Shown: positions 128 to 14,021 of the stretch, piece by piece
How positions within the stretch are numbered: the first letter of the stretch is position 1
How the letters are laid out: each line of letters starts with the position of its first letter
The notes under the pieces: generated by a model
Told to the model about the DNA's origin: nothing
What the model saw: the letters and a program-made list of their open reading frames with translations, nothing else
Database searches by the model: none
Translations under genes and position numbers: made by a program
IMG/VR virus record: IMGVR_UViG_3300042882_000526
Coordinates: 1-40,869 of that record
Length of the DNA stretch: 40,869 nt
Source of the DNA: a virus
Direction: 5' to 3' (one strand)

Positions 128-464
128 TCAGACGGTTCAGCATGTCACGCGCCTTGTGCAGGTCTTCCACGCCGTTCTTGAACGGGAAGCGCACGAGGTA
201 CTTCAGCACACTGGCCTGAAGGAAGTCCAGGCCGTTGGCCTCGATGAAGTCGATCGGCTGGATCGCGAACCGGGCGTAGTGCGCCGGGGACGAGATCACG
301 TTGTAGCTACCGGCCCGCGAAGGCTCCTGCCACACAGGCTTCACCGCGCCCGCTTGCTGATCCCGGTCGGGTTGGGCCTCGTCCAGATGCTTAACCCCAC
401 ACCACTTGTAGTGCCCGCCCTTCGCTCCACAGTCATTGCATCTAGCCACGCCATTCTCCTCCAT
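18..464 (-). CDS. DUF3310 family protein with N-terminal zinc ribbon
   Basis: Last gene of the minus-strand early operon, 148 aa. The middle region (HYARFAIQPIDFIEANGLDF followed by LKYLVRFPFKNG and LHKARDML) matches the DUF3310 pattern of phage proteins often labelled nucleotide kinase, although no P-loop is visible and the activity is unproven. The N-terminus adds a Cys cluster (CNDCG then WCG) that could bind zinc. It overlaps the 3' end of the A1-like gene. A GGAGG lies 8 nt upstream of a GTG at 449-447, so initiation there, five codons in, is at least as likely as the ATG at 464. Its 3' end crosses the contig closure and overlaps tail-to-tail with the plus-strand XhlA-like gene by about 90 nt on the circular map. 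Confidence 0.75.
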   Translation of the reverse strand: MEENGVARCNDCGAKGGHYKWCGVKHLDEAQPDRDQQAGAVKPVWQEPSRAGSYNVISSPAHYARFAIQPIDFIEANGLDFLQASVLKYLVRFPFKNGVEDLHKARDMLNRLIAREEAKLVGDAGQEVGGQPAAEYPEGRADRGGGTQ

Positions 465-1845
465 AGATAGTCACCATCTGACGCTTGCCGTTAGGCTGCG
501 CTATTCCGAACGTGTGTGTCCAACCGGATGGCCCCGAGTTGTACCCCAGATCGAGGAGGCTAGAAGTACCAACCATCCAAACGCCATCAACGATGCCAGC
601 GCGGTGGCCATGCCCGATAAATGACTTGCGGCCCATTCGGGCGAAACCAAGCATAGAACCACGCCCGCCATTGACGCCAAGATGGCCGTGCATACCAAGC
701 TCAATCCCACCATTAGCGTCCTTACAAATGACATAGCTGTCGTCCTCCCGCAGGAAGTTCACGCCCTTGATGCCGCGTTTCATCATAGCATGTTCGAACA
801 CGGAGAACCTACGGTCTTTTTCCGCTTCCGATCGGTAGACCGCGGACTGGAGATCGAGGAACGTCAGCGCGTTGCGCGGGTCGCTCCGGTAGTCCGCACT
901 GTCCAGCCAACGCAGCAGCGCGCCGTCGTGGTTGCTGGCCACGACAATGCTCTCGCACCAGGAGCGGCTGCGCTTGGCCAGGGCTACCGCCACCTCGTCC
1001 AGTTCCGCACCGACGCAGTCATCCTCCGGGTCCCCGACGTAGCGCCGGAAGCGCATCCGCCCGTTGCCGATCTCGTGGTGGTTCCGGCTATGGAAGTCGA
1101 GCATATCATGGAATACCTGCCGCTTGGGGCGCAGGGTATCCAGGATACCTCCCTTGGCCCAGGCCAGCTTGGCCACGACCGGGTCGGCCTTGCGGACGTG
1201 GGCGTCACCCCACACGATCGCTTCGACCCGGTGGCCTGTCGTCACCTTGCCGTCCTTCACCCGCAGGTCGAGGTCGTACATGGTGCCGTTCTCGGTGGCC
1301 GTGATCTGGCGGCAGAACCACCCGTGGTCGGACACCTCGACAAGGAGCGCGCCGTAGGCATGGTGGAACTGCGCCACCTGGCCTGCCTTCTTCTGGATAT
1401 AGTTCTTCCGGGTGACGCAGCCCGTCGTGTAGATCAGCTTGGTGCTTTCGTGCTTGCCCGAGGCCACGCTCTCCAGCGCCACCTTGGGGTGCGGGATGAT
1501 GCACGAGTTGCGCCCGGTGTAGCTTTCGAAGCCGCTGATCGGGCGGCGTGCGGTGGGCAGGATTTGCAACTCGCCGCACCACTCAAGACCCTTGGCCACG
1601 ACCATGCGCTCGTCGAGGACATAGGGCATGGCATCCCGCGCCCACGACCGATCAGTGCGCGCCGACTTCATGTTCGGCTTGGCGCTCTCGTTGTGCGTCG
1701 CCATGTCGTAGACGAAGCGCGACAGAACGATCTGTGCGTTGTAATGCTTGGCCAGGGCCAGCAGGTTGTTCCATGTCGGGCGATGCAGAGGAGTATCGTT
1801 CTGCATGCACGAGAACAGATATCGCTTAACGGCCAAAGAAGTCAC
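442..1845 (-). CDS. T5 A1-like metallophosphoesterase / putative nuclease
   Basis: 467 aa with the ordered motifs of a calcineurin-type dimetal phosphoesterase: VWGDAH (about residue 212), DMLDFHSRNHHE (about 245), VVASNHDG (about 302), a lone MHGH (about 382) and a final GHGHR (about 405). These are the expected D-x-H, GNH(D/E), H and GHxH metal ligands. The overall layout recalls phage T5 A1, linked to host DNA degradation and the pre-early switch; that assignment is from family resemblance only. The GTG start at 1845 overlaps the upstream small membrane gene by 20 nt; ATATGGG precedes it. The last third has lower GC3 than the rest and contains an out-of-frame two-TM ORF (501-734). Likely role: early nuclease attacking host DNA or processing phage DNA. 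Confidence 0.6.
   Translation of the reverse strand: MTSLAVKRYLFSCMQNDTPLHRPTWNNLLALAKHYNAQIVLSRFVYDMATHNESAKPNMKSARTDRSWARDAMPYVLDERMVVAKGLEWCGELQILPTARRPISGFESYTGRNSCIIPHPKVALESVASGKHESTKLIYTTGCVTRKNYIQKKAGQVAQFHHAYGALLVEVSDHGWFCRQITATENGTMYDLDLRVKDGKVTTGHRVEAIVWGDAHVRKADPVVAKLAWAKGGILDTLRPKRQVFHDMLDFHSRNHHEIGNGRMRFRRYVGDPEDDCVGAELDEVAVALAKRSRSWCESIVVASNHDGALLRWLDSADYRSDPRNALTFLDLQSAVYRSEAEKDRRFSVFEHAMMKRGIKGVNFLREDDSYVICKDANGGIELGMHGHLGVNGGRGSMLGFARMGRKSFIGHGHRAGIVDGVWMVGTSSLLDLGYNSGPSGWTHTFGIAQPNGKRQMVTIYGGEWRG
501..734 (-). CDS. Nested two-TM protein inside A1-like gene (holin/antiholin candidate)
   Basis: 77-aa ORF on the same strand as the A1-like gene but out of frame. ATG at 734 is preceded by GGGAGG with 9 nt spacing. 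The product is strongly hydrophobic: TM1 about residues 8-30, a short polar loop (SPEWAASH), TM2 about 41-62, then a hydrophilic tail with Arg, His and Glu. This is class II holin architecture. Its second codon positions coincide with the third positions of the A1 frame, and there the A1 frame uses far more T-ending codons (hand count about 56% GC3 against about 83% in the preceding 125 codons). No dedicated holin gene is otherwise evident in the lysis cassette. Expression is unproven; it could still be a fortuitous ORF. Confidence 0.5.
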   Translation of the reverse strand: MSFVRTLMVGLSLVCTAILASMAGVVLCLVSPEWAASHLSGMATALASLMAFGWLVLLASSIWGTTRGHPVGHTRSE

Positions 1846-2159: not shown

Positions 2160-2470
2160 TAGAACCCCCTCACCATCTTCAGGAAATCACTGGCATCCAT
2201 GATGACAACCCAATCTTTCTTGCTCTTGCGGTGAAGCACCATGGGGGTGTTGCCACCGCAGTCCGCTCGTGCCTGGGCCATGGCCGCCTCAAGGTCCAGC
2301 TTCTCCGTGCGCTTGACCTCGATATGAAAGCCCGGCAGGCCGGTGACGTCGGCGCTGTCTTTGCCGCCCTGATACTGCACCCCCCTCTTGCCGTCGAAGC
2401 CGTACTCGCGGAGGAGCGCGGCCACTTCGCGCTCTCCCACCTTTCCCTTGTCGCGACTTAGTTTTCCCAT
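2159..2470 (-). CDS. PDDEXK endonuclease / Holliday junction resolvase-like
   Basis: 103 aa from the ATG at 2470, which overlaps the TAA stop of the DNA polymerase (TAATG). The pattern KGKVGEREVAALLREYGF, then DSADVTGLPGFHIEVKRTE and a following helix (AMAQARADC) is that of small PD-(D/E)XK nucleases related to archaeal Hjc and phage VRR-type resolvases: E in the first helix, D of SADV, and E-x-K of HIEVKR. Likely role: cleavage of branched recombination or replication intermediates before packaging. A longer in-frame extension to 2527 exists but has no ribosome-binding site and lies within the polymerase gene. Confidence 0.75.
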   Translation of the reverse strand: MGKLSRDKGKVGEREVAALLREYGFDGKRGVQYQGGKDSADVTGLPGFHIEVKRTEKLDLEAAMAQARADCGGNTPMVLHRKSKKDWVVIMDASDFLKMVRGF

Positions 2471-4470
2471 TATTTCCTGTACCTCTTGCCACACCAGCCT
2501 TCCGCCTTGACGGGCCAGTGGGCGCACCAGGCTGGAAGATCGCCTACCATAAATTCTATCAGCCTCTCGACCGGGAGATCAACTCCTAATCCCTCGTCGA
2601 CCTCCGTTACGATCTCGTCGTAGACGGTCATCAGCACAGGCATTTCGGGGTCGCACCTACGCTGGCCATGCACCAGGATATCGCGGCACGTCGCCTGCGT
2701 CACGCCCTGCGCCAATTTCCCGCCCCATGTGTCGATGCGCTGCCAGTGGCCGGACTTCTGGCTCATGTAAGTTAGTACCACTTCGGACCTATCCGTGTGG
2801 GGGTTGACCTTCTCCTTGAGCAGCGGGTCGTAGTAGGCGATGTTGCGGGATGACGGCAGGGTGCAGACGAGCCACCGCCCACGCACCTGGTACTTCACCC
2901 CGAACGCCTCGCACTGCTTGCCCGGCTTCAGCACCGCCTCGTGCGCCGCGTCCTGGAGGCCATACCACAGGCCCACACCGGCCTCGCCGTCCTTGACCTC
3001 CTGGTCCCACGGCGGGCGGGCGATGTTGGGGTGCTTGCGCCGCCATGCGTTCTTGAAGCCGTTTACTTCAGTATCGCAAAAGCGATCGCTGTCATCAAAG
3101 TTGCGCCAAGCGCCGACGCCACCGCCAAACCCGAAAGCAAGCTCCCCAACTTTGCCAACCTCCTGCCGGGCCACGGGATCAGTAGCTTTAGTGATTGCAC
3201 GGCCAAGAGCAGCACTAGCAAAAGCGCAATAAGGATCATCCCCACGTCTGAATAGATCAAGTTTGCTCTCCTCTCCTGCGATAGCTGCGATGCCCACGCT
3301 CTCGATCGACGCCAGGTCGACGGAGCAGAGGTTCTTCCCCTCCCCCGCCATGAACATGGGACGCAGGGCGTCGGCCACGCATTGCATGGGGTCGCCGTAC
3401 ATCATGCGCAGCCAGTCGGGATCGCGTGTAGCGATGGCCTCGATCAAGCTCTCCGGGTCGGCGTCTAGCTTAGGTCGCGGTAGGTTGAGCGGCTGGACGA
3501 GACGCCCCGCATTACGGCCCGTGAAAGCGCCGTGATACTGCGAGAGGCCACGAACACGGCCATCCGCGCATACAGCAGACAGTAGTCCAGCCAGCTTCTT
3601 CGTACTGGCCTTCGCAAGCGACGCTCTGATCTCAAGTACACGCCGCTCGACGGAGCCTTGTTCCGCGCGAGGGATCGCCGCTGCGACGGTGTCTGCCGTG
3701 AGGTCATCCAATCCTCCATCCACTTTCCATTGAACGAAGTCCAGTATCTCGGCCACCTGATTGGCCGTCTCTATCCTGCCGCCCGTGATCTCGACAAGCT
3801 CCGCGGTCAGTTCCTTCTCGACTTCCTTCACGATCGCGATGGCGTTATGCACGCTTTCCACGTCGATCGTAATGCCCCGCGAGTTCATCTTCTCGTTGAG
3901 CAGGAACACCCCGCGCTCCGGGGCGGGCAGCGCGCCCAGTTCCCTGCGGATACGCTGCTCGACGCGCACGTCCTGCTTACAGTAGTCGTATAGCTCGGCC
4001 AGAAGCTCCGGGTCTTGGACGCGGGTGCGCGGGTCTTTCTTCTTGGGCTTCTGCGGCTTGCACAACAGGTTGATTAGCTGCTTGCCACGCTTGTCCTTGC
4101 GCACGTCCAGCCCGAGAGCCGCGGCGCACTGTTCCAGCCCCAGGGGCAGCGCCCGACTGGCCGCGCGAGCCATCGTGCAGTCGTACTGGTGGGCCTCTAT
4201 CTCGGGCCAGCCCATACGCTTGACACAGACGTTCTCCCATATGGCGCGCTCAAAGCCGACATTGTGGGCGTCAACAACCGCGCCCTTGGCTATCGCTCGC
4301 AGCAGGCCGACCGGAAAAATCTCACCTGCTTTCCACAGGCGCGGCTCACCTTCGTTGTAAGCGTAAGCCATGCACAGGACTTCGGTGCTGGGATGCTCCG
4401 AGTACTTATAGGCCCCTGTCTTCTTCAGGTCGGCATCGCTGTATGTTTCGAAGTCGATCGTGATATGCAA
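2470..4470 (-). CDS. Family A DNA polymerase with 3'-5' exonuclease
   Basis: 666 aa replicative polymerase. The N-terminal DEDDy proofreading domain shows TIDFET (D6, E8), DAHNVGFE (about 67-74) and YDYCKQDV (Y163, D167). The polymerase domain has motif A LCSVDLASIES (about residue 380), motif B RQEVGKVGELAFGFGG (about 430-446) and motif C MTVYDEIVTEV (about 620), where the usual HDE is YDE. There is no 5'-3' exonuclease domain. Start: TTG at 4470, with GAGG 7 nt upstream; no better ATG fits the exonuclease motif so close to the N-terminus. A minus-strand terminator lies just upstream, so expression may be set by read-through from DUF2815. Codons 404-469, covering motif B, have sharply lowered GC3 and overlap a nested two-TM ORF. 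Confidence 0.93.
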   Translation of the reverse strand: MHITIDFETYSDADLKKTGAYKYSEHPSTEVLCMAYAYNEGEPRLWKAGEIFPVGLLRAIAKGAVVDAHNVGFERAIWENVCVKRMGWPEIEAHQYDCTMARAASRALPLGLEQCAAALGLDVRKDKRGKQLINLLCKPQKPKKKDPRTRVQDPELLAELYDYCKQDVRVEQRIRRELGALPAPERGVFLLNEKMNSRGITIDVESVHNAIAIVKEVEKELTAELVEITGGRIETANQVAEILDFVQWKVDGGLDDLTADTVAAAIPRAEQGSVERRVLEIRASLAKASTKKLAGLLSAVCADGRVRGLSQYHGAFTGRNAGRLVQPLNLPRPKLDADPESLIEAIATRDPDWLRMMYGDPMQCVADALRPMFMAGEGKNLCSVDLASIESVGIAAIAGEESKLDLFRRGDDPYCAFASAALGRAITKATDPVARQEVGKVGELAFGFGGGVGAWRNFDDSDRFCDTEVNGFKNAWRRKHPNIARPPWDQEVKDGEAGVGLWYGLQDAAHEAVLKPGKQCEAFGVKYQVRGRWLVCTLPSSRNIAYYDPLLKEKVNPHTDRSEVVLTYMSQKSGHWQRIDTWGGKLAQGVTQATCRDILVHGQRRCDPEMPVLMTVYDEIVTEVDEGLGVDLPVERLIEFMVGDLPAWCAHWPVKAEGWCGKRYRK
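3063..3260 (-). CDS. Nested two-TM protein inside DNA polymerase (holin candidate)
   Basis: 65-aa ORF on the polymerase strand but out of frame. TTG at 3260 is preceded by AGGAGAGGAGAG, a near-ideal Shine-Dalgarno 5-7 nt away; an alternative ATG is at 3239. TM1 (about 8-28) is a run of Leu/Val/Ile/Ala, followed by the basic turn PWPGRRLAK and TM2 (about 38-64, small and hydrophobic residues), ending in Lys. Length and topology match class II holins. Second codon positions of this ORF are third positions of the polymerase frame, which here falls to about 43% GC3 by hand count (21% over the first 29 codons) against 86% in the 50 codons upstream and 94% in the 48 downstream. That is what selection for hydrophobic residues in the second frame would produce. 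Expression is not demonstrated. Confidence 0.6.
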   Translation of the reverse strand: MIYSDVGMILIALLLVLLLAVQSLKLLIPWPGRRLAKLGSLLSGLAVASALGATLMTAIAFAILK

Positions 4471-4486
4471 TGGCCGACCTCAATTT

Positions 4487-4515
4487 AAAAAAGTGCCCGG
4501 ACTTTCACCGGGCTC
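4487..4515 (-). terminator. Intrinsic terminator between DUF2815 and DNA polymerase
   Basis: Read on the minus strand, GCCCGG, a 7-nt loop and CCGGGC are followed by ACTTTTTT. It lies after the SSB-like gene and directly before the polymerase TTG start, so it probably acts as an attenuator that keeps polymerase expression below that of the SSB-like protein. Confidence 0.7.
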
Positions 4516-4569
4516 ACGGTAGCCTGCCGTGTCAGTGCGGTGTTTACGACCCGCCGTCTGTTCGCACGA

Positions 4570-5223
4570 CTAGAAGTCTTCGTCACCCGACGTCGGGTCC
4601 TGGGCGGAGGAGCCCCCCAGCACACCCTTGAACACGTCGTCGCGGCTCTTGCGGCCAAGACGTTCACCTTCGCCAACCTTCACGATGAAATTGACATAGG
4701 CCGTCAGGTAGCGATTGACGTTCTCGCCGCTCTCGATCTGGCTACCGACCAGGTTGAGTTCGGCCTTCACCAGGCATCCCGAGTAGAACTCCCGGTCCGC
4801 CGTCTCTGCGGGCACCTCGACCGCCTTGCCACCGACCGCCTTACTCAGGTCGGGAGCGAACTTGGACTTGGCCTCCAGCACCCACGCGCCCTTCATGTAC
4901 GCCATGCGATCGGCGGACTTGTCGGGGTTCTTCTTCATCGCCTTCTCGATCACCTTCTCACCGAGGGTGAACTTCTTGCTCCAGTCCTTGAACTCGACGC
5001 TGGAGTTGGTTTCCTTCGCCGCCTTGATATAGGCCGCCTTGACCGCCTCGACCGTATCCGTGTCCGACTGCGGGATCAGGAAGGTAGCGTTGTAGCTGCC
5101 GTTCTGATCGTCCACGACGGACTTGCGGGTGCGGGCGTCGAACTTGGTCTTGGCGAGGATCGGATGGTACAGCACCAGCTTGGCGGGACCGATCACGACG
5201 AGGGAGGGAGTAATCTTAGCCAT
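4570..5223 (-). CDS. DUF2815 single-stranded DNA-binding-like protein
   Basis: 217 aa. The opening (MAKITPSLVVIGPAKLVLYH), the central NGSYNATFLIPQ and the C-terminal NRYLTAYVNFIVKV fit the DUF2815 family, which accompanies DUF2800 and Pol A in many phages and is regarded as an ssDNA-binding protein. The acidic, Phe-ending tail (SGDEDF) resembles the partner-binding tip of SSB proteins and supports that role. Just before the tail is SRDDVFKGVL, a segment also found at the extreme C-terminus of the upstream DUF2800 protein. It has its own minus-strand promoter candidate (5258-5286) and a terminator right after it, suggesting a separately boosted, abundant product. Confidence 0.85.
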   Translation of the reverse strand: MAKITPSLVVIGPAKLVLYHPILAKTKFDARTRKSVVDDQNGSYNATFLIPQSDTDTVEAVKAAYIKAAKETNSSVEFKDWSKKFTLGEKVIEKAMKKNPDKSADRMAYMKGAWVLEAKSKFAPDLSKAVGGKAVEVPAETADREFYSGCLVKAELNLVGSQIESGENVNRYLTAYVNFIVKVGEGERLGRKSRDDVFKGVLGGSSAQDPTSGDEDF

Positions 5224-5286: not shown

Positions 5287-6450
5287 TACCCCTTTGAAAA
5301 CTTCATCACGGTTGCGCACCGCCTGCCCAGCCCTGGCGTCGGTATCCGGGGCCACGGTCATGCCGGTGTCGGGCTTGTAGGCGTACTTCTTCACGAAGTC
5401 CTTGCCGCCTTCCAGCTTCTCAATGGCCGGGGGTGTCTTCAGCTTCTTCTCGTAGGCGGCCTCACCGAACGTGTCGACCACCGGGGCGTCGTCCTTGAAC
5501 ACCCGATCGGACTTCTTCGCCACCATCTTCCAACCGCTGATCTGCTTGCCTGCACGCAGCCGGGTGAAAATCTCCTCGTCGAAGACCTTGGCGAGGCCCT
5601 TCACGATGTTCGTCTCGGTGGCCGCGAGGCCCAGTTCCCAGTCTTCCATAGCCTTGATGATCTCCGGTGTGTAGGTCAGAACACGCGCCCGCATTTCCTT
5701 GATGGCGGGGCAGGTCAGCCTTTTAGGGCAGAAGGAGGAGTTGCACCACGGACCGGGCTGTAAAAAAGGCTCCGGTTGTTCCGTGCGTCGGGCGGCGGCA
5801 AGCCAATCGTCACGCAGCCATGCCTTGAGCACGCCCACGCTTGTCCACCACGATCTAACAGGCTCCACCCCGTATACACGCGGCTGACAGATGTTGATCT
5901 CAACGGGGAAGTCGTCATCCTGCCATGCCTCCGTTCCGTACAGCGCGCCCACGGCGTACTGCATAAGCTGGGTGTTCTTCTCTGCCGATACCATGATACC
6001 GGCGCCGTGCTTGTAATCGGCCACAACCGCTTGCTTGTCCCCAATAAGGGTGCAGTCCGTGGTCCCGAAGAAGTCAGGATGCACTTCGGCCAGGTGGAAG
6101 CGCTCCTCCACCAGGACCCGCGACCCCAGTTTACTTCCCCGCAGGCCAAGCTCGTCTATCTTGCCGCGGATATGGTCCAAATATATCTGAACCGCCTCCG
6201 CATCACTTTCGCCAAATTCCGCGTCCGTGGCAAAGTCGGCTTCGCCAATATGCACTTTGGCGTCTTCGCCCGACACAAGACAACGGGCCGCGATATCATG
6301 CGCCAGAGTGCCGTCGTCGGCGTAGGAGCTTCTGGTATTTGCGCCGGGGCCAAGCTCCTGGATCAGCTTCACACTGCCAGGGCAATGGAACCAGCGGTGC
6401 GTACTCGACGCGCCGAGTTTGGAGTGGATCGTAGGAGAAGTTTCACCCAT
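5281..6450 (-). CDS. DUF2800 Cas4/RecB-like nuclease
   Basis: 389 aa. N-terminal GASSTHRWFHCPGSVKL is typical of DUF2800. A PD-(D/E)XK core is visible as HPDFFGTTDCTL (motif II) and QAVVADYKHGAG (motif III, D-x-K). A late Cys group, CNSSFCPKRLTC, with an earlier Cys (HCPGS) resembles the Fe-S cluster ligands of Cas4/AddB-type exonucleases. Predicted role: 5'-end resection or recombination during replication, together with the DUF2815 protein encoded next. The start at 6450 overlaps the preceding gene by 8 nt. The protein ends NRDEVFKGVL, nearly identical to a C-terminal segment of DUF2815. Confidence 0.85.
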   Translation of the reverse strand: MGETSPTIHSKLGASSTHRWFHCPGSVKLIQELGPGANTRSSYADDGTLAHDIAARCLVSGEDAKVHIGEADFATDAEFGESDAEAVQIYLDHIRGKIDELGLRGSKLGSRVLVEERFHLAEVHPDFFGTTDCTLIGDKQAVVADYKHGAGIMVSAEKNTQLMQYAVGALYGTEAWQDDDFPVEINICQPRVYGVEPVRSWWTSVGVLKAWLRDDWLAAARRTEQPEPFLQPGPWCNSSFCPKRLTCPAIKEMRARVLTYTPEIIKAMEDWELGLAATETNIVKGLAKVFDEEIFTRLRAGKQISGWKMVAKKSDRVFKDDAPVVDTFGEAAYEKKLKTPPAIEKLEGGKDFVKKYAYKPDTGMTVAPDTDARAGQAVRNRDEVFKGVL

Positions 6451-7192
6451 TGTTGCACACTACCCCACATTCAATGTCCGGTTCGTCGTTGTAGCGCCCC
6501 GCGTCCGGGTCCAGCTCGTCCAGATACACGCGGCTGGTGACACCCCAGCTACGGTCCTTCAGTATCGTGGCACCGATCTCGCGCTCCATCTTTGCCATGC
6601 GCTCAAAGTCCTCCGGGAAGTCGCGACGTATCTTGTTCCAGTATCCCATGCCTCCCTTCACACAGCCAATACAATTATTGTTCTTGTAGCCCAGCTTATA
6701 CATTTCCGGCATCGCGATACCCGCTTCACGGATACGGAGGTAGCACTCTCGCTTGCTCACGCCCTGATCCAGAAGCAGAAAGTCTCCGATGACTTCGAAG
6801 TTCTCGGCCTTGAACCGCTCGATACGAGCCTTCTCATCCGACGTAAAGCCAAACACCTGGATATCGTCGGGTAGTTGAAACTCCTTACGCACGTTCTTTT
6901 TTAGCTCTGTGGTGCAACGCGCGCCCTTGTTGCCCACCAGCCAGCGTGTACGGCGGAACACGTCCATGATATCGGTGTACTCCGACGACTTCAATAGCTG
7001 AATGGGAAGATCGTACCAACGCGACACGTCGTCCAGAAAGCGTCGGTTGTCCGGGTGTTCGTAGCGCAGCGTGTCACAGTAGGCAACGGTGACGCGCTCC
7101 TTTCCGTACTTCTCGATCGCCAGCTTACCGGCTACCGCGCTGGCCGCGCCGCATGAAAACCATACGACCACGCGGGGAAGTTCTACTTGCAT
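6443..7192 (-). CDS. PAPS reductase-like PP-loop protein
   Basis: 249 aa from the ATG at 7192 (a GTG four codons upstream at 7204 is possible). N-terminal VVWFSCGAASAVAGKLA is the PP-loop of phage PAPS-reductase/ATP-pyrophosphatase proteins; YCDTLRYEHPDN, GARCTTELKK and CIGCVKGGMGYW follow in family order, with the Cys pair likely functional. In phages these proteins have been linked to sulfur chemistry, including DNA or tRNA modification; the true substrate is unknown. It overlaps Rz1 upstream and DUF2800 downstream, so it is co-transcribed with both lysis and replication genes. Confidence 0.85.
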   Translation of the reverse strand: MQVELPRVVVWFSCGAASAVAGKLAIEKYGKERVTVAYCDTLRYEHPDNRRFLDDVSRWYDLPIQLLKSSEYTDIMDVFRRTRWLVGNKGARCTTELKKNVRKEFQLPDDIQVFGFTSDEKARIERFKAENFEVIGDFLLLDQGVSKRECYLRIREAGIAMPEMYKLGYKNNNCIGCVKGGMGYWNKIRRDFPEDFERMAKMEREIGATILKDRSWGVTSRVYLDELDPDAGRYNDEPDIECGVVCNNG

Positions 7193-7365
7193 AGCTTCTT
7201 CCACACCGCGTTGTTCTCCTGAACCTGGCGCACCGTCTCGGGCGTGTCACGCGCCGCCGAGTAAGTGACCGGAATGTAGCTGGTGCAGAAGGTATCGACC
7301 GGGACGGGGGTGCAGCTAGCGAGGACCCCAGCGATCACGGTTAAATTCATCATCTTCAGCATCAA
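7183..7365 (-). CDS. Rz1: Rz1-like outer-membrane spanin lipoprotein
   Basis: 60 aa (58-59 from the alternative starts at 7362/7353). A short signal peptide ends in the lipobox VLASC, giving a mature lipoprotein of about 43 residues with the common o-spanin text YIPVTYSAARDTPETVRQVQ and NNAVWKKLC. It starts inside the 3' end of the Rz gene, overlapping about 50 nt in a different frame, the classic embedded Rz/Rz1 arrangement. Role: outer-membrane half of the spanin that fuses the two membranes in the last step of lysis. The 3' end overlaps the PAPS-reductase-like gene. Confidence 0.85.
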   Translation of the reverse strand: MMLKMMNLTVIAGVLASCTPVPVDTFCTSYIPVTYSAARDTPETVRQVQENNAVWKKLCK

Positions 7366-7564
7366 TCGGCTTTCCTCTTGCTTGTGCGCGGGCCTCCGCG
7401 GCGCGGCGCACGTTGGTCAACGTAGCTTCAACCTGCTTGATCTTCTCCTCGTTACGCCCCGCGTCGAACACCCTCCATAATAGTATGCCGACGAACACCA
7501 GCGCAATACCCGCGCCGATCGCCCACAACTTTATCTTCGGCCACAGGGTCAGGAACCAGGTCAC
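7316..7564 (-). CDS. Rz: Rz-like inner-membrane spanin
   Basis: 82 aa with one N-terminal TM helix (about 10-32, KLWAIGAGIALVFVGILLW) and a periplasmic charged helix (NEEKIKQVEATLTNVRRAAE) expected to form a coiled coil, as in i-spanins. Start: GTG at 7564, overlapping the stop of the previous gene (GTGA), with GAGG 7 nt upstream. It pairs with the overlapping Rz1 lipoprotein. It is short for an i-spanin but in line with other small-genome phages. Confidence 0.85.
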   Translation of the reverse strand: MTWFLTLWPKIKLWAIGAGIALVFVGILLWRVFDAGRNEEKIKQVEATLTNVRRAAEARAQARGKPIDAEDDEFNRDRWGPR

Positions 7565-7902: not shown

Positions 7903-8063
7903 TCTTCCAGCCTCATGCGCTTGGCCAGTTCGTTGCCCAGCGCCGCATGGAACTCCTCCCACTTGGCGTAGGGCATCTTCAGTTCCAGGCCATCCATGCC
8001 CGGAACCACGAAAGAGAAGTCGGCCCGGTTCAGGTCGGGGATCACCTCGCGCTTGCTAGGCAA
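7899..8063 (-). CDS. Hypothetical protein, 54 aa
   Basis: Small ORF fitting exactly between the hydrolase gene and the secreted protein: TTG start at 8063 overlaps the hydrolase stop, and the stop (ATGA) overlaps the next ATG. The product contains FVVPGMDGLELKMPYAKWEEFHAALG and a basic/acidic helical end. No family recognised. Gapless coupling on both sides is the main support. The start is uncertain because the upstream Shine-Dalgarno is weak. Confidence 0.6.
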   Translation of the reverse strand: MPSKREVIPDLNRADFSFVVPGMDGLELKMPYAKWEEFHAALGNELAKRMRLEE

Positions 8064-8820
8064 TGCCGTTCTCGTGCATCATCTTGCGATCCTTTCGCAG
8101 ACGCCAGAAGTAGAACGCCGTGCCCGCACCCGCGATCAGGATAACCCCGGCCACGATCGCCGCGATCCTCCAATCGCTGATCGCAGAGAAGGCTGTCACC
8201 GCCGCCGTGCCCGTGGCCGCGACGTTGGCCACCTGGCCTTGCGTGCTGAGCTTCAGGCTCTCGGACTGCTTCATGTCCTCGCGGATGATGTTGCCGTCGT
8301 CCTGCCGGGTGTAGCCTTCCGGCACGCCCAGCGCCATGTTGACGCCCGCCTGCGCCTCCAGGAGCGTGATCGTGGACTTGCCCGCCTCGACGACGTTCAT
8401 GGCCCGGACGATCGAGACGATCTTGCCCTTGAAGTAGGGCGAGCTATTGGACGACACCAGCGCGGTGACGTCGAAGTCGGCGGGCAGGCCGGTCTGGCGG
8501 CACACAGACTGGAGGTAAGCCGCGGTGTGGTTCATGTCCACCCCGCCGACCGCCGAACCGGCCTGCCCAATGATCTCGCCGCCAGGAGGAGGGGGTGCCC
8601 AGCGGTAGATCACATCCTTCAGGGTCTTGACCCCCGAGAACTTGACGTAGGAACGCATGTTGATGACCGCGGCGCGGACGCCGTGTTCATTGTCCTTGAA
8701 CACGCAGAACTTGCCCGTGACCGGGTTCGTGCTGATCCCGGTCTGGCCCTGCCACTTCTCCCCGCCCGGCAAGGGGCGGAGATTGAGCGGGTTCTTGTTC
8801 GTCTCGGCCAGGGTCGGCAT
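8056..8820 (-). CDS. Putative peptidoglycan hydrolase with C-terminal membrane anchor
   Basis: 254 aa. The N-terminal part has NKNPLNLRPLPGGEKWQGQTG, then FCVFKDNEHGVRAAVINMRSY and IYRWAPPPPGG, the signature of a family seen in phage endolysins and virion-associated wall-degrading proteins (NPxNLR pattern, Glu 45 in DNEHG). A TM helix at about 218-239 (WRIAAIVAGVILIAGAGTAF) is followed by a basic tail (RLRKDRK). There is no N-terminal signal. Its position directly before the exported protein and Rz/Rz1 makes it the best endolysin candidate. A tail-anchored lysin is unusual: the positive-inside rule puts the basic C-tail in the cytoplasm and the enzyme outside, as a reversed SAR-like topology. 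Alternatively it is a structural protein. Confidence 0.6.
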   Translation of the reverse strand: MPTLAETNKNPLNLRPLPGGEKWQGQTGISTNPVTGKFCVFKDNEHGVRAAVINMRSYVKFSGVKTLKDVIYRWAPPPPGGEIIGQAGSAVGGVDMNHTAAYLQSVCRQTGLPADFDVTALVSSNSSPYFKGKIVSIVRAMNVVEAGKSTITLLEAQAGVNMALGVPEGYTRQDDGNIIREDMKQSESLKLSTQGQVANVAATGTAAVTAFSAISDWRIAAIVAGVILIAGAGTAFYFWRLRKDRKMMHENGIA

Positions 8821-11914: not shown

Positions 11915-12063
11915 CCGAACGTGAAGAAGTGCTGGAGGCGCGGAGGGCGTTTGAGGAGTTGAAGAAAGCAGAAGGAGCCTGGATATCGGGGCAGGCGCTT
12001 GACGACCTCCTGGACGAAGCACTGGGGCCGCGCGTTGACACCGTCAAGGAAACCAATAAGTAA
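11911..12063 (+). CDS. Small acidic helical protein, 50 aa
   Basis: ATG at 11911 (AAGGAG upstream) overlaps the HTH stop, and the TAA overlaps the ATG of the primase-helicase. The product (MTEREEVLEARRAFEELKKA) is a charged helix with an acidic second half. No family recognised. Its position directly before the primase-helicase suggests a small accessory or partner of that enzyme. Confidence 0.7.
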   Translation: MTEREEVLEARRAFEELKKAEGAWISGQALDDLLDEALGPRVDTVKETNK

Positions 12064-14021
12064 TGCTCGATCGTGCATTGGCCTGGGCCCGGCAAGGGTG
12101 GCCCGTGTTCCCCTGTAGCTCAACCGGCCACCCGGCCATCAAGGAGTGGCAGAAGAAGGCTACCACGGACGAGGCCGTCATTCGTGCGTGGGACTGGGAA
12201 GACAAGCGCGTAGCAGCGGTGCCGGGTCTGGCGGGCTGCTTCGTGATCGACGTGGACGTGAAGAACGGCAAGGACGGTGAAGCGTCGCTGGCCAAACTGG
12301 AGGCAGAACATGGCTTTGAAGCGTGGGAATACCCGCAACAGGATACACCGAGTGGTGGAAGACACATCTTCGTCAATGGACACTTCCGCACAAGCGTCCA
12401 GAAGCGACTTGGCGAGGGCCTTGACACTCGTGGTGGAAATTCAGACGGGGGGCTCGGTTTCATCTACTGTTATGGAGAGGAGCCCCCGGCTTCTAGTAGT
12501 GAAATTCCACATGGACCAGCTTCCCTCTTGGCTCTTTCAGGGGAAGGGCACGAGGTCAGCGAAGACCGGGAAACGCCGCGGGTCGAGCTAGACCAGCCCG
12601 CCAACATCGAGCGGGCGCTGGCCTATGTGCGTAACCTGCCTTCCCCGGACGAGGGGCAGCGCAACATCAGCGTTTTCAAGACCGCTTGCACTTTGAAAGA
12701 TTTGGGGCTTTCCCTTTCAAAGATATTCGAAGTGCTGGAGGATCATCCCAGTGTGACGGGCACCCCGCCCCTGTGTGAAGAAAACGAGGAGGAGTTCAAT
12801 GCCACAGTCAGGTCGGCATACAAGAATGGGCAAAGGCAGCCGGGCATCGACGCAATCGACGAAGAAGCCCGCAACGCAGCGGCCAGTGGCTATGACGTGG
12901 GACCAGTATCGGGAGACGGGCGGCCCAGTTCCGATTTACATAGTGCCTCGCGTAAGCGCCTCGGCCTGTGGAGCGAGCGCAAAAACCGCCCGCCCCCGGA
13001 ATGGCTCGTCCGAGGATTGCTGACGAAGTCGAGCCTGGCCGGGCTGTACGGCCCCGGCGGGTCCTACAAGTCGTTCATCGCGCTAGACCTGGCTGCGGCC
13101 ATCGCAACCGGGCAGGCACAATGGGGTGGCAGAAATGTCACACATGGGCCTGTGGTGTTCATCAGTGGTGAGGGCAGCGTGGAGCCTCGCGCCCTGGCCA
13201 TCGAGACGAGGGGCATCCAGATCACGGACAACTTCGCGATCCTGGACGGCATTAACCTCGACGACACGGACCAGCTTGCAGAGGCCGTGGACGATATCAA
13301 CACGGCGATCGAGCAGAACTGGGGTGGGCAAGCCCCTGTCCTGATCGTGGTCGACACCCTGGCGCGTGCGGCACCGGGGCAGGACGAGAACAGTGCCAAG
13401 GACATGGGCAGGGTGGTGGCATCGTGCGACGGATTTCGCAAGTTGTACGGGTGCTGCGTCCTGTTGGTGCATCATACCCCCAAGGGCGGCCATGACTGGA
13501 GGGGCAGTACGGCGGTGTGGAACGCCCTCGACACCGGCCTGGCGGTGAAGCGCACCGGGCTCAACCACGCCTCCCTGAAGGTCGAGCGGCAGAAGGATGG
13601 TGCCATAGGACAAGTGTGGAAGATTGCCCTGGAGAAGGTCGAGACAGGCCGCGAGCGAGATGACGAGAAGGAGAGTTCCCTCGTGATCTCGGCCATCGAG
13701 GCGGTGGCGCAGGAGGAGCGCAAGGGGGAGGATGCGGAGAAGATCGCCGCGGCGGCTCGCGCCCGGTCGATGACGGTAAACGACCACAGAGCCCAATGCG
13801 CGGCCAGGATTTTGGCGGAAACCGCGCCGGGGTACGAGGTGAGCTACGGGGCACTGGTGGCGCAAATTATGGTGGAAAATCAAGGCGCTAGCAGGGAAGC
13901 GGTGAGCGAGTGGGTGCGGGGCGTGGTGAAGAAGGGAGAAGTGCAGGGCGAACACCCGTTGGCAAAATTTGTGAGCAATATCAAGCCCTTAGCGTTTCAG
14001 AGGGTGTCCGAGGAAACGTAG
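12063..14021 (+). CDS. Bifunctional PrimPol primase-polymerase / RepA-like helicase
   Basis: 652 aa. The N-terminal PrimPol domain shows ALAWARQGWPVFPCS, the metal-binding FVIDVDVKNG (D63, D65), TPSGGRHIF (97-103) and LDTRGGNSDGG. A primase C-terminal-like linker follows (about 180-260, EGQRNISVFKTACTLKDLG). The C-terminal AAA/RecA-type helicase domain has Walker A GPGGSYKS (about 329-336), Walker B VLIVVDTLAR (about 425) and LVHHTPKGG (about 470). A winged-helix-like tail ends the protein. It should synthesise primers and unwind DNA for the phage polymerase. Unlike the other replication genes it lies on the plus strand, with a terminator right after it. Confidence 0.9.
   Translation: MLDRALAWARQGWPVFPCSSTGHPAIKEWQKKATTDEAVIRAWDWEDKRVAAVPGLAGCFVIDVDVKNGKDGEASLAKLEAEHGFEAWEYPQQDTPSGGRHIFVNGHFRTSVQKRLGEGLDTRGGNSDGGLGFIYCYGEEPPASSSEIPHGPASLLALSGEGHEVSEDRETPRVELDQPANIERALAYVRNLPSPDEGQRNISVFKTACTLKDLGLSLSKIFEVLEDHPSVTGTPPLCEENEEEFNATVRSAYKNGQRQPGIDAIDEEARNAAASGYDVGPVSGDGRPSSDLHSASRKRLGLWSERKNRPPPEWLVRGLLTKSSLAGLYGPGGSYKSFIALDLAAAIATGQAQWGGRNVTHGPVVFISGEGSVEPRALAIETRGIQITDNFAILDGINLDDTDQLAEAVDDINTAIEQNWGGQAPVLIVVDTLARAAPGQDENSAKDMGRVVASCDGFRKLYGCCVLLVHHTPKGGHDWRGSTAVWNALDTGLAVKRTGLNHASLKVERQKDGAIGQVWKIALEKVETGRERDDEKESSLVISAIEAVAQEERKGEDAEKIAAAARARSMTVNDHRAQCAARILAETAPGYEVSYGALVAQIMVENQGASREAVSEWVRGVVKKGEVQGEHPLAKFVSNIKPLAFQRVSEET

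Follow-up and report, generated by a model that had tools for sequence, protein, structure and literature searches.

A candidate overprinted membrane-protein gene, nested +1 within the DNA polymerase gene, in an uncultivated podovirus-like phage

The question raised by this locus is whether a short out-of-frame ORF, preceded by a good ribosome-binding site and lying inside a phage DNA polymerase gene, is a second gene or a by-product of the local composition of the polymerase codons. The window, i.e. the whole stretch of DNA that was analysed, is the 40.9-kb record (40,869 nucleotides) of an uncultivated virus whose connector, terminase, head and tail genes match those of podovirus-type phages. 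Its minus strand also carries an SNF2-type helicase, an endolysin, a spanin-like gene, an exonuclease and a single-strand binding protein, together with a family-A DNA polymerase, a RusA-like gene, a small transmembrane (TM) gene and a T5 A1-like gene. The features of the polymerase locus are the following:

2470..4470, minus strand: family-A phage DNA polymerase of 666 aa, host of the nested ORF (phrog_17, 7.5e-75)
3063..3260, minus strand: nested +1 ORF of 65 aa with a TTG start and a TAA stop, predicted two-helix membrane hairpin
3266..3277, minus strand: Shine-Dalgarno (SD) sequence AGGAGAGGAGAG of the nested TTG, 5 nt before it

A previous reading, made from the sequence only, had described at 3063-3260 a 65-codon TTG ORF, out of frame in the polymerase gene and with two hydrophobic segments, and this description was confirmed. 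The ORF, which is in frame +1 from polymerase codon 404, covers codons 404-469, motif B region included, and its product is LIYSDVGMILIALLLVLLLAVQSLKLLIPWPGRRLAKLGSLLSGLAVASALGATLMTAIAFAILK. The claim of a near-ideal SD sequence was also borne out, AGGAGAGGAGAG lying 5 nt and its GAGGAG core 7 nt before the TTG. This core is kept in 9 of 9 lineages, and the SD sequence doubles as codons for a conserved Gly-Glu-Glu of the polymerase. The start itself, TTG, is a weak one, which was counted against the nested gene. The GC content at third positions (GC3) of the polymerase codons falls sharply over the ORF, the computed values (0.44 for codons 397-462 and 0.27 for codons 397-429, against 0.91-0.94 in the flanks) being in agreement with the earlier hand count; the minimum GC3 of a 33-codon window in the gene is 0.24. 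The recoding of polymerase third positions to T over the ORF puts T at the second positions of the nested codons and thus makes the nested product hydrophobic. Other GC3 dips, absent from the earlier reading, are present in the polymerase gene at codons 242-335 and 627-666.

Openness alone is no evidence for a gene, because the window contains 242 ORFs of 60 aa or more. Two scans for relatives gave ten related polymerase loci besides duplicates, with 74-97% polymerase identity to the window; a megablast of the region against phage records returned no match, and a scan of genome contigs no relative. The +1 frame is open over the nested ORF in every related locus. Its stop is kept in 9 of 9, as TAA, TGA or TAG, and its TTG is kept everywhere except in the most distant relative, G009 (L055), where CTT GA is replaced by CTA AA, so that the TTG becomes TAA, with an ATG directly after it (one codon on). 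The conservation of frame and start, proposed earlier as a check, is thus seen in the relatives, with a start that is shifted in G009. Conservation of the hydrophobicity, proposed as well, holds in most lineages but not in all, since TM1 has been lost in one of them (G001-G003; L001-L003) and a charged N-terminus is found instead. The nested products share 37-63% identity with that of the window, where the polymerases share 81-94%, and some of the retention of start and stop is accounted for by conserved polymerase residues. Two antisense ORFs over the low-GC3 patch (2840-3232 and 2941-3255, plus strand) were rejected as candidates, being kept in only about half of the relatives.

All 126 alternative-frame ORFs that span 50 codons or more within aligned genes were scored for retention of start, stop and openness. 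The best retained were the polymerase-nested ORF, for which all three were kept in 7 of 7 tested relatives, and a second two-helix ORF, nested in the A1-like gene, which was absent from the earlier reading and surfaced in this scoring:

442..1845, minus strand: T5 A1-like DNA transfer protein of 467 aa, host of the second nested ORF (phrog_1745, 3.5e-165)
501..734, minus strand: second nested +1 ORF of 77 aa with an ATG start and a TAG stop, predicted two-helix hairpin with a basic C-terminal tail
743..749, minus strand: SD sequence GGGAGGA of the second nested ORF, 8 nt before the ATG

The ATG and the TAG of the A1-nested ORF are kept in 10 of 10 lineages, and this ORF is better supported than the polymerase-nested one. 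AlphaFold gave two helices for both the polymerase-nested and the A1-nested products, with modest confidence (pLDDT 68 and 69, respectively). In the cultured Agrobacterium phages Atu_ph03 and Atu_ph02 (L130, L131; A1 gene at 409-1866), the last part of the A1 gene has an open +1 frame that encodes a hydrophobic sequence with two TM segments, over T-rich third positions; the origin of this frame is either deeper or parallel.

A blind likelihood segmentation of GC3 pooled over the relatives delimited the polymerase patch to codons 403-469, the ORF covering codons 404-469, with 5-logL ranges of 393-404 and 469-472 for the two ends. The sole GC3 breakpoint of the A1 gene was placed at codon 370 or 371 (range 369-373), and the nested ATG is codon 371. 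Since SD-led start codons are rare in the +1 frames (20 in 11,034 codons), these matches between breakpoints and starts are unlikely by chance, the probability being about 0.02 and 0.009 for the two starts and about 0.10 for the polymerase stop; the tests were chosen post hoc, after the data had been seen, and the relatives are not independent. The placing of stop-prone codons was considered as well. A stop arises in the +1 frame only when a host codon NTA is followed by A or G, or a host codon NTG by A. Among the Ile, Val and Leu columns inside both ORFs, NTA is found at 0 of 18 stop-capable columns and at 4 of 5 safe ones (Fisher 5.6e-4), and the terminal columns of both nested ORFs are stops in all sequences. 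When the third-base vectors were shuffled among Ile/Val/Leu columns, with composition and relatedness preserved, the permutation P for stop avoidance was 0.0125 (exact) for the ORF nested in the polymerase gene and 4e-4 for the one in the A1 gene. This avoidance is partly general, as NTA before a purine is avoided about twofold elsewhere too. The retention in relatives, the match of the composition boundaries to the ORF ends and the distribution of stop-prone codons all exceed chance.

Suppression of synonymous change in the polymerase frame, which had also been put forward as a check of the nested gene, failed: the synonymous divergence is raised, with 0.51 inside the nested ORF versus 0.27 in the flanks, and the best-fitting segment of altered rate, about 403/409-466, corresponds to the ORF in four pairs. 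By BLOSUM, the amino-acid replacements in the nested product are not milder than a random choice of synonymous codons would give, and in hydropathy they are milder by a small margin only. For the A1-nested ORF, 6 of 68 synonymous columns are variable inside the ORF against 108 of 322 outside among close relatives (P = 1.6e-5), a suppression seen only within this close group and absent between distant lineages. Because synonymous divergence is raised over the polymerase-nested ORF, and suppression over the A1-nested ORF is confined to close relatives, the status of overprinted gene is probable, not proven. Judging from these rates, the polymerase-nested product, if real, would evolve fast, with a constraint acting mainly on its being hydrophobic and open.

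The same data could be read with no nested gene at all, the patch being a recombination or co-conversion tract at the homing site of an intein or a homing endonuclease, or a zone of relaxed codon selection, in which T-rich third positions open the +1 frame and make it hydrophobic as a by-product. Hydrophobicity does follow from T at third positions, and a history of co-conversion could both lower GC3 and raise divergence; low-GC3 parts in general show raised synonymous divergence, and the identity between the window and L001 is 73% in the patch versus 96% outside. Inteins of distant relatives also sit in both interior polymerase dips, that of L065 near codon 320 and those of L036/L041 and L066 at codons 441-447, and at the third dip an HNH gene is present at the 3' end in L005. 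However, at codons 404-469 no intein, intron or endonuclease gene was found in the 11 related records, but only in relatives below 45% identity; the intein sites are off the centre of the patch, close relatives have none, and the intein-bearing L036 has no GC3 dip. Moreover, the boundaries of the patches coincide with an SD-led start and with a stop, in two genes, a coincidence not expected of a tract, NTA occurs at safe positions only, and the synonymous suppression of the A1-nested ORF in the close group is the opposite of what a tract of relaxed selection would give. Because of the GC3 segmentation and the A1 case, the reading of the patch as a scar of a homing site is demoted, and we consider it unlikely.

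The inserts themselves were described in the other polymerase loci. L036 and L041 bear an intein at polymerase motif B (6336-7200), the middle of which encodes an HNH endonuclease (phrog_374, 4e-29) in a frame (6452-7198) other than that of the intein, both frames being open. At nearly the same polymerase site, the low-GC phage L066 has an intein (3827-4727) containing, out of frame, an HNH endonuclease (phrog_374, 1.5e-23; open frame 3969-4727). An out-of-frame HNH endonuclease inside a polymerase intein is apparently a recurrent arrangement. The intein-like insert of L065 (3446-4360) lies after polymerase codon 319/320, at the second GC3 dip of the window's clade, and its residues before the +1 Ser end in GN. 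In L005, an HNH-type endonuclease gene (6546-7128) overlaps the polymerase stop and is followed by a diverged second copy of the last 39 polymerase codons; this locus has the appearance of a homing insertion in which the end of the gene was recoded.

A sharp local change of composition could by itself mark a signal at the RNA or DNA level, such as a pause, a structure, an origin or a promoter, and explain the recoding without a protein. No Rfam family was matched in the window or in the intein-bearing loci. The effect of the recoding is, however, frame-specific (+1), and the fast divergence of synonymous sites in the patch leaves no room for a structure or motif conserved over about 200 nt; such a signal appears highly improbable.

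Taken together, the retention of start, stop and open frame and the agreement of the composition breakpoints with the ends of the ORF support the claim of a nested gene, and comparison of the sequences leads us to propose, with a probability of about two in three, that the polymerase-nested ORF is a genuine overprinted gene. Ribosomes would enter the polymerase message at the internal SD/TTG site and make a membrane protein of about 65 residues, in which two helices would form a hairpin around a basic loop. This gene and the A1-nested gene (501-734) would both have been born by overprinting in the clade's ancestor. No GC3 dip was observed in 45 more distant polymerases or in the distant A1 genes, and among the distant polymerases and A1 genes checked no hydrophobic +1 frame was found, save for the A1 genes of Atu_ph02 and Atu_ph03; both nested ORFs are therefore regarded as clade-specific rather than as an old shared gene. 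No free-standing homologue of the polymerase-nested product was found in PHROGs, in Pfam or in phages by tblastn, and the A1-nested product gave nothing convincing against PHROGs and Pfam.

The function of an overprinted membrane protein is best considered together with the lysis genes of the window:

8056..8820, minus strand: endolysin with a C-terminal transmembrane segment, ordinary lysis gene
7316..7564, minus strand: Rz-like i-spanin candidate (weak matches)

The C-terminal transmembrane segment of the endolysin is kept in all covering relatives, and this end of the protein has a weak similarity to holins. No separate holin was seen beside the endolysin (8056-8820), and the remaining small TM genes are present in only some relatives. 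A lysis role is favoured because no other small two-helix protein occurs in all relatives and because the endolysin has no neighbouring holin. We tentatively suggest that the nested protein could act in the control of lysis at the inner membrane, as a holin, an antiholin or a pinholin-like protein, probably with the A1-nested protein; as far as the sequences indicate, a lysis role for the nested pair is plausible. Class II holins of the S21 type are proteins with two TM helices and an N-in/C-in topology, encoded by stand-alone genes of the lysis cassette. The nested products, of 65 and 77 aa, are like them in length and number of helices and agree with the size and helix number of class II holins (60-150 aa, two TM helices), except in the L001 lineage, in which TM1 is missing; neither product matches a holin family in PHROG or Pfam. 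Topology was assigned by the positive-inside rule. The loop of the polymerase-nested product is basic in all lineages, which would point to N-out/C-out, the reverse of the S21 arrangement, whereas the A1-nested protein, predicted to be N-in/C-in with a basic tail, fits it more closely and would be the better class II holin candidate.

If the nested gene is real, the main alternative to lysis is a membrane protein that acts early, for instance in superinfection exclusion or in anchoring the replication machinery to the membrane. Both host genes, polymerase and A1-like, are of the early or replication type, an antagonistic role would suit the fast divergence of the polymerase-nested product, and the N-out/C-out topology predicted from the basic loop is unlike that of a class II holin. 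Phage Fc02 is known to have small overlapping genes for exclusion (PMC9936078). No homology to exclusion families was found, however, and only topology and rate favour such a role over lysis; it is considered possible, but less likely than not.

Several known systems resemble this locus in part. In phiX174, gene E, nested in gene D, encodes a lysis membrane protein that has one TM segment and blocks MraY. As in the present case, a membrane protein gene lies in the +1 frame of another gene, but E differs by its single TM segment, by its host gene, which encodes a scaffold protein, and by having no homology to the ORF described here. In leviviruses, lysis genes arise de novo, most of the functional ones being +1 within the replicase gene, and a genome sometimes holds two nested lysis genes (PMC7693330). 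Like the overprinted genes proposed here, these single-gene lysis (sgl) genes lie +1 within a polymerase gene and encode small hydrophobic proteins; they show no sequence conservation, have a de novo origin and sometimes number more than one per genome. They belong to ssRNA phages with an RNA replicase, whereas here the host gene is the DNA polymerase A of a dsDNA podovirus-like phage, the starts are SD-led, the phage also has an endolysin and the lysis role is only a candidate. Since levivirus rep genes hold +1 lysis genes, the idea of a nested lysis gene is not without precedent (PMC7693330); for the DNA polymerase of a dsDNA phage, no precedent was found in the literature searched. More generally, no gene nested in the DNA polymerase A or the A1 gene of a tailed phage is described in this literature, subscription journals lying outside it. 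Tailed phages also have the spanin gene Rz1 nested out of frame within Rz (PMC6139136), but there both partners are lysis genes, while the host here is a replication gene. The ShiLan domain is a hidden out-of-frame HNH endonuclease inside a phage enzyme gene (PMC11855218); it is an inserted mobile element absent from relatives, whereas here there is no insertion and the host codons themselves are dual-coding.

The pattern could extend to other genes of the clade. The window has five interior low-GC3 segments in all, at codons 242-335 and 403-469 of the polymerase, 370-468 of the A1 gene, 171-272 of the exonuclease and 72-170 of the primase, and all five begin at most 13 codons upstream of an SD-led +1 start (codons 255, 404, 371, 178 and 83, respectively), an observation made post hoc. 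The SD-led +1 ORF of the primase gene (12310-12591, plus strand, inside the primase at 12063-14021) coincides with the low-GC3 codons 72-170, and its ATG, SD sequence and stop (within two codons) are kept in 5 of 5 relatives. SD-led +1 ORFs at polymerase codon 255 (3465-3707, minus strand) and at exonuclease codon 178 (5715-5918, minus strand) show partial retention in relatives. These polymerase-255, exonuclease and primase ORFs are less well kept than the polymerase-404 and A1 ORFs. It is conceivable, though doubtful, that the clade has overprinted several DNA-metabolism genes with +1 genes, giving two membrane hairpins that would act together in lysis (polymerase 404-469 and A1 371-448), with as many as three additional products encoded at codons 255-335 of the polymerase, 178-245 of the exonuclease and 83-176 of the primase.

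Same-strand ORFs nested in large phage genes are thrown out by gene finders. If the reading proposed here is true, phages of this type may have further genes, so far overlooked, superimposed on essential ones, and pooling GC3 breakpoints across relatives would be a cheap means of finding them. Replication genes of tailed phages would then host de novo membrane genes, dual-coded over the catalytic region of the polymerase, and the occurrence of a lysis gene within a polymerase gene would extend from RNA phages to dsDNA phages. Since the start codon of the most distant relative is already shifted, this clade would also offer a system in which gene birth by synonymous recoding could be watched.
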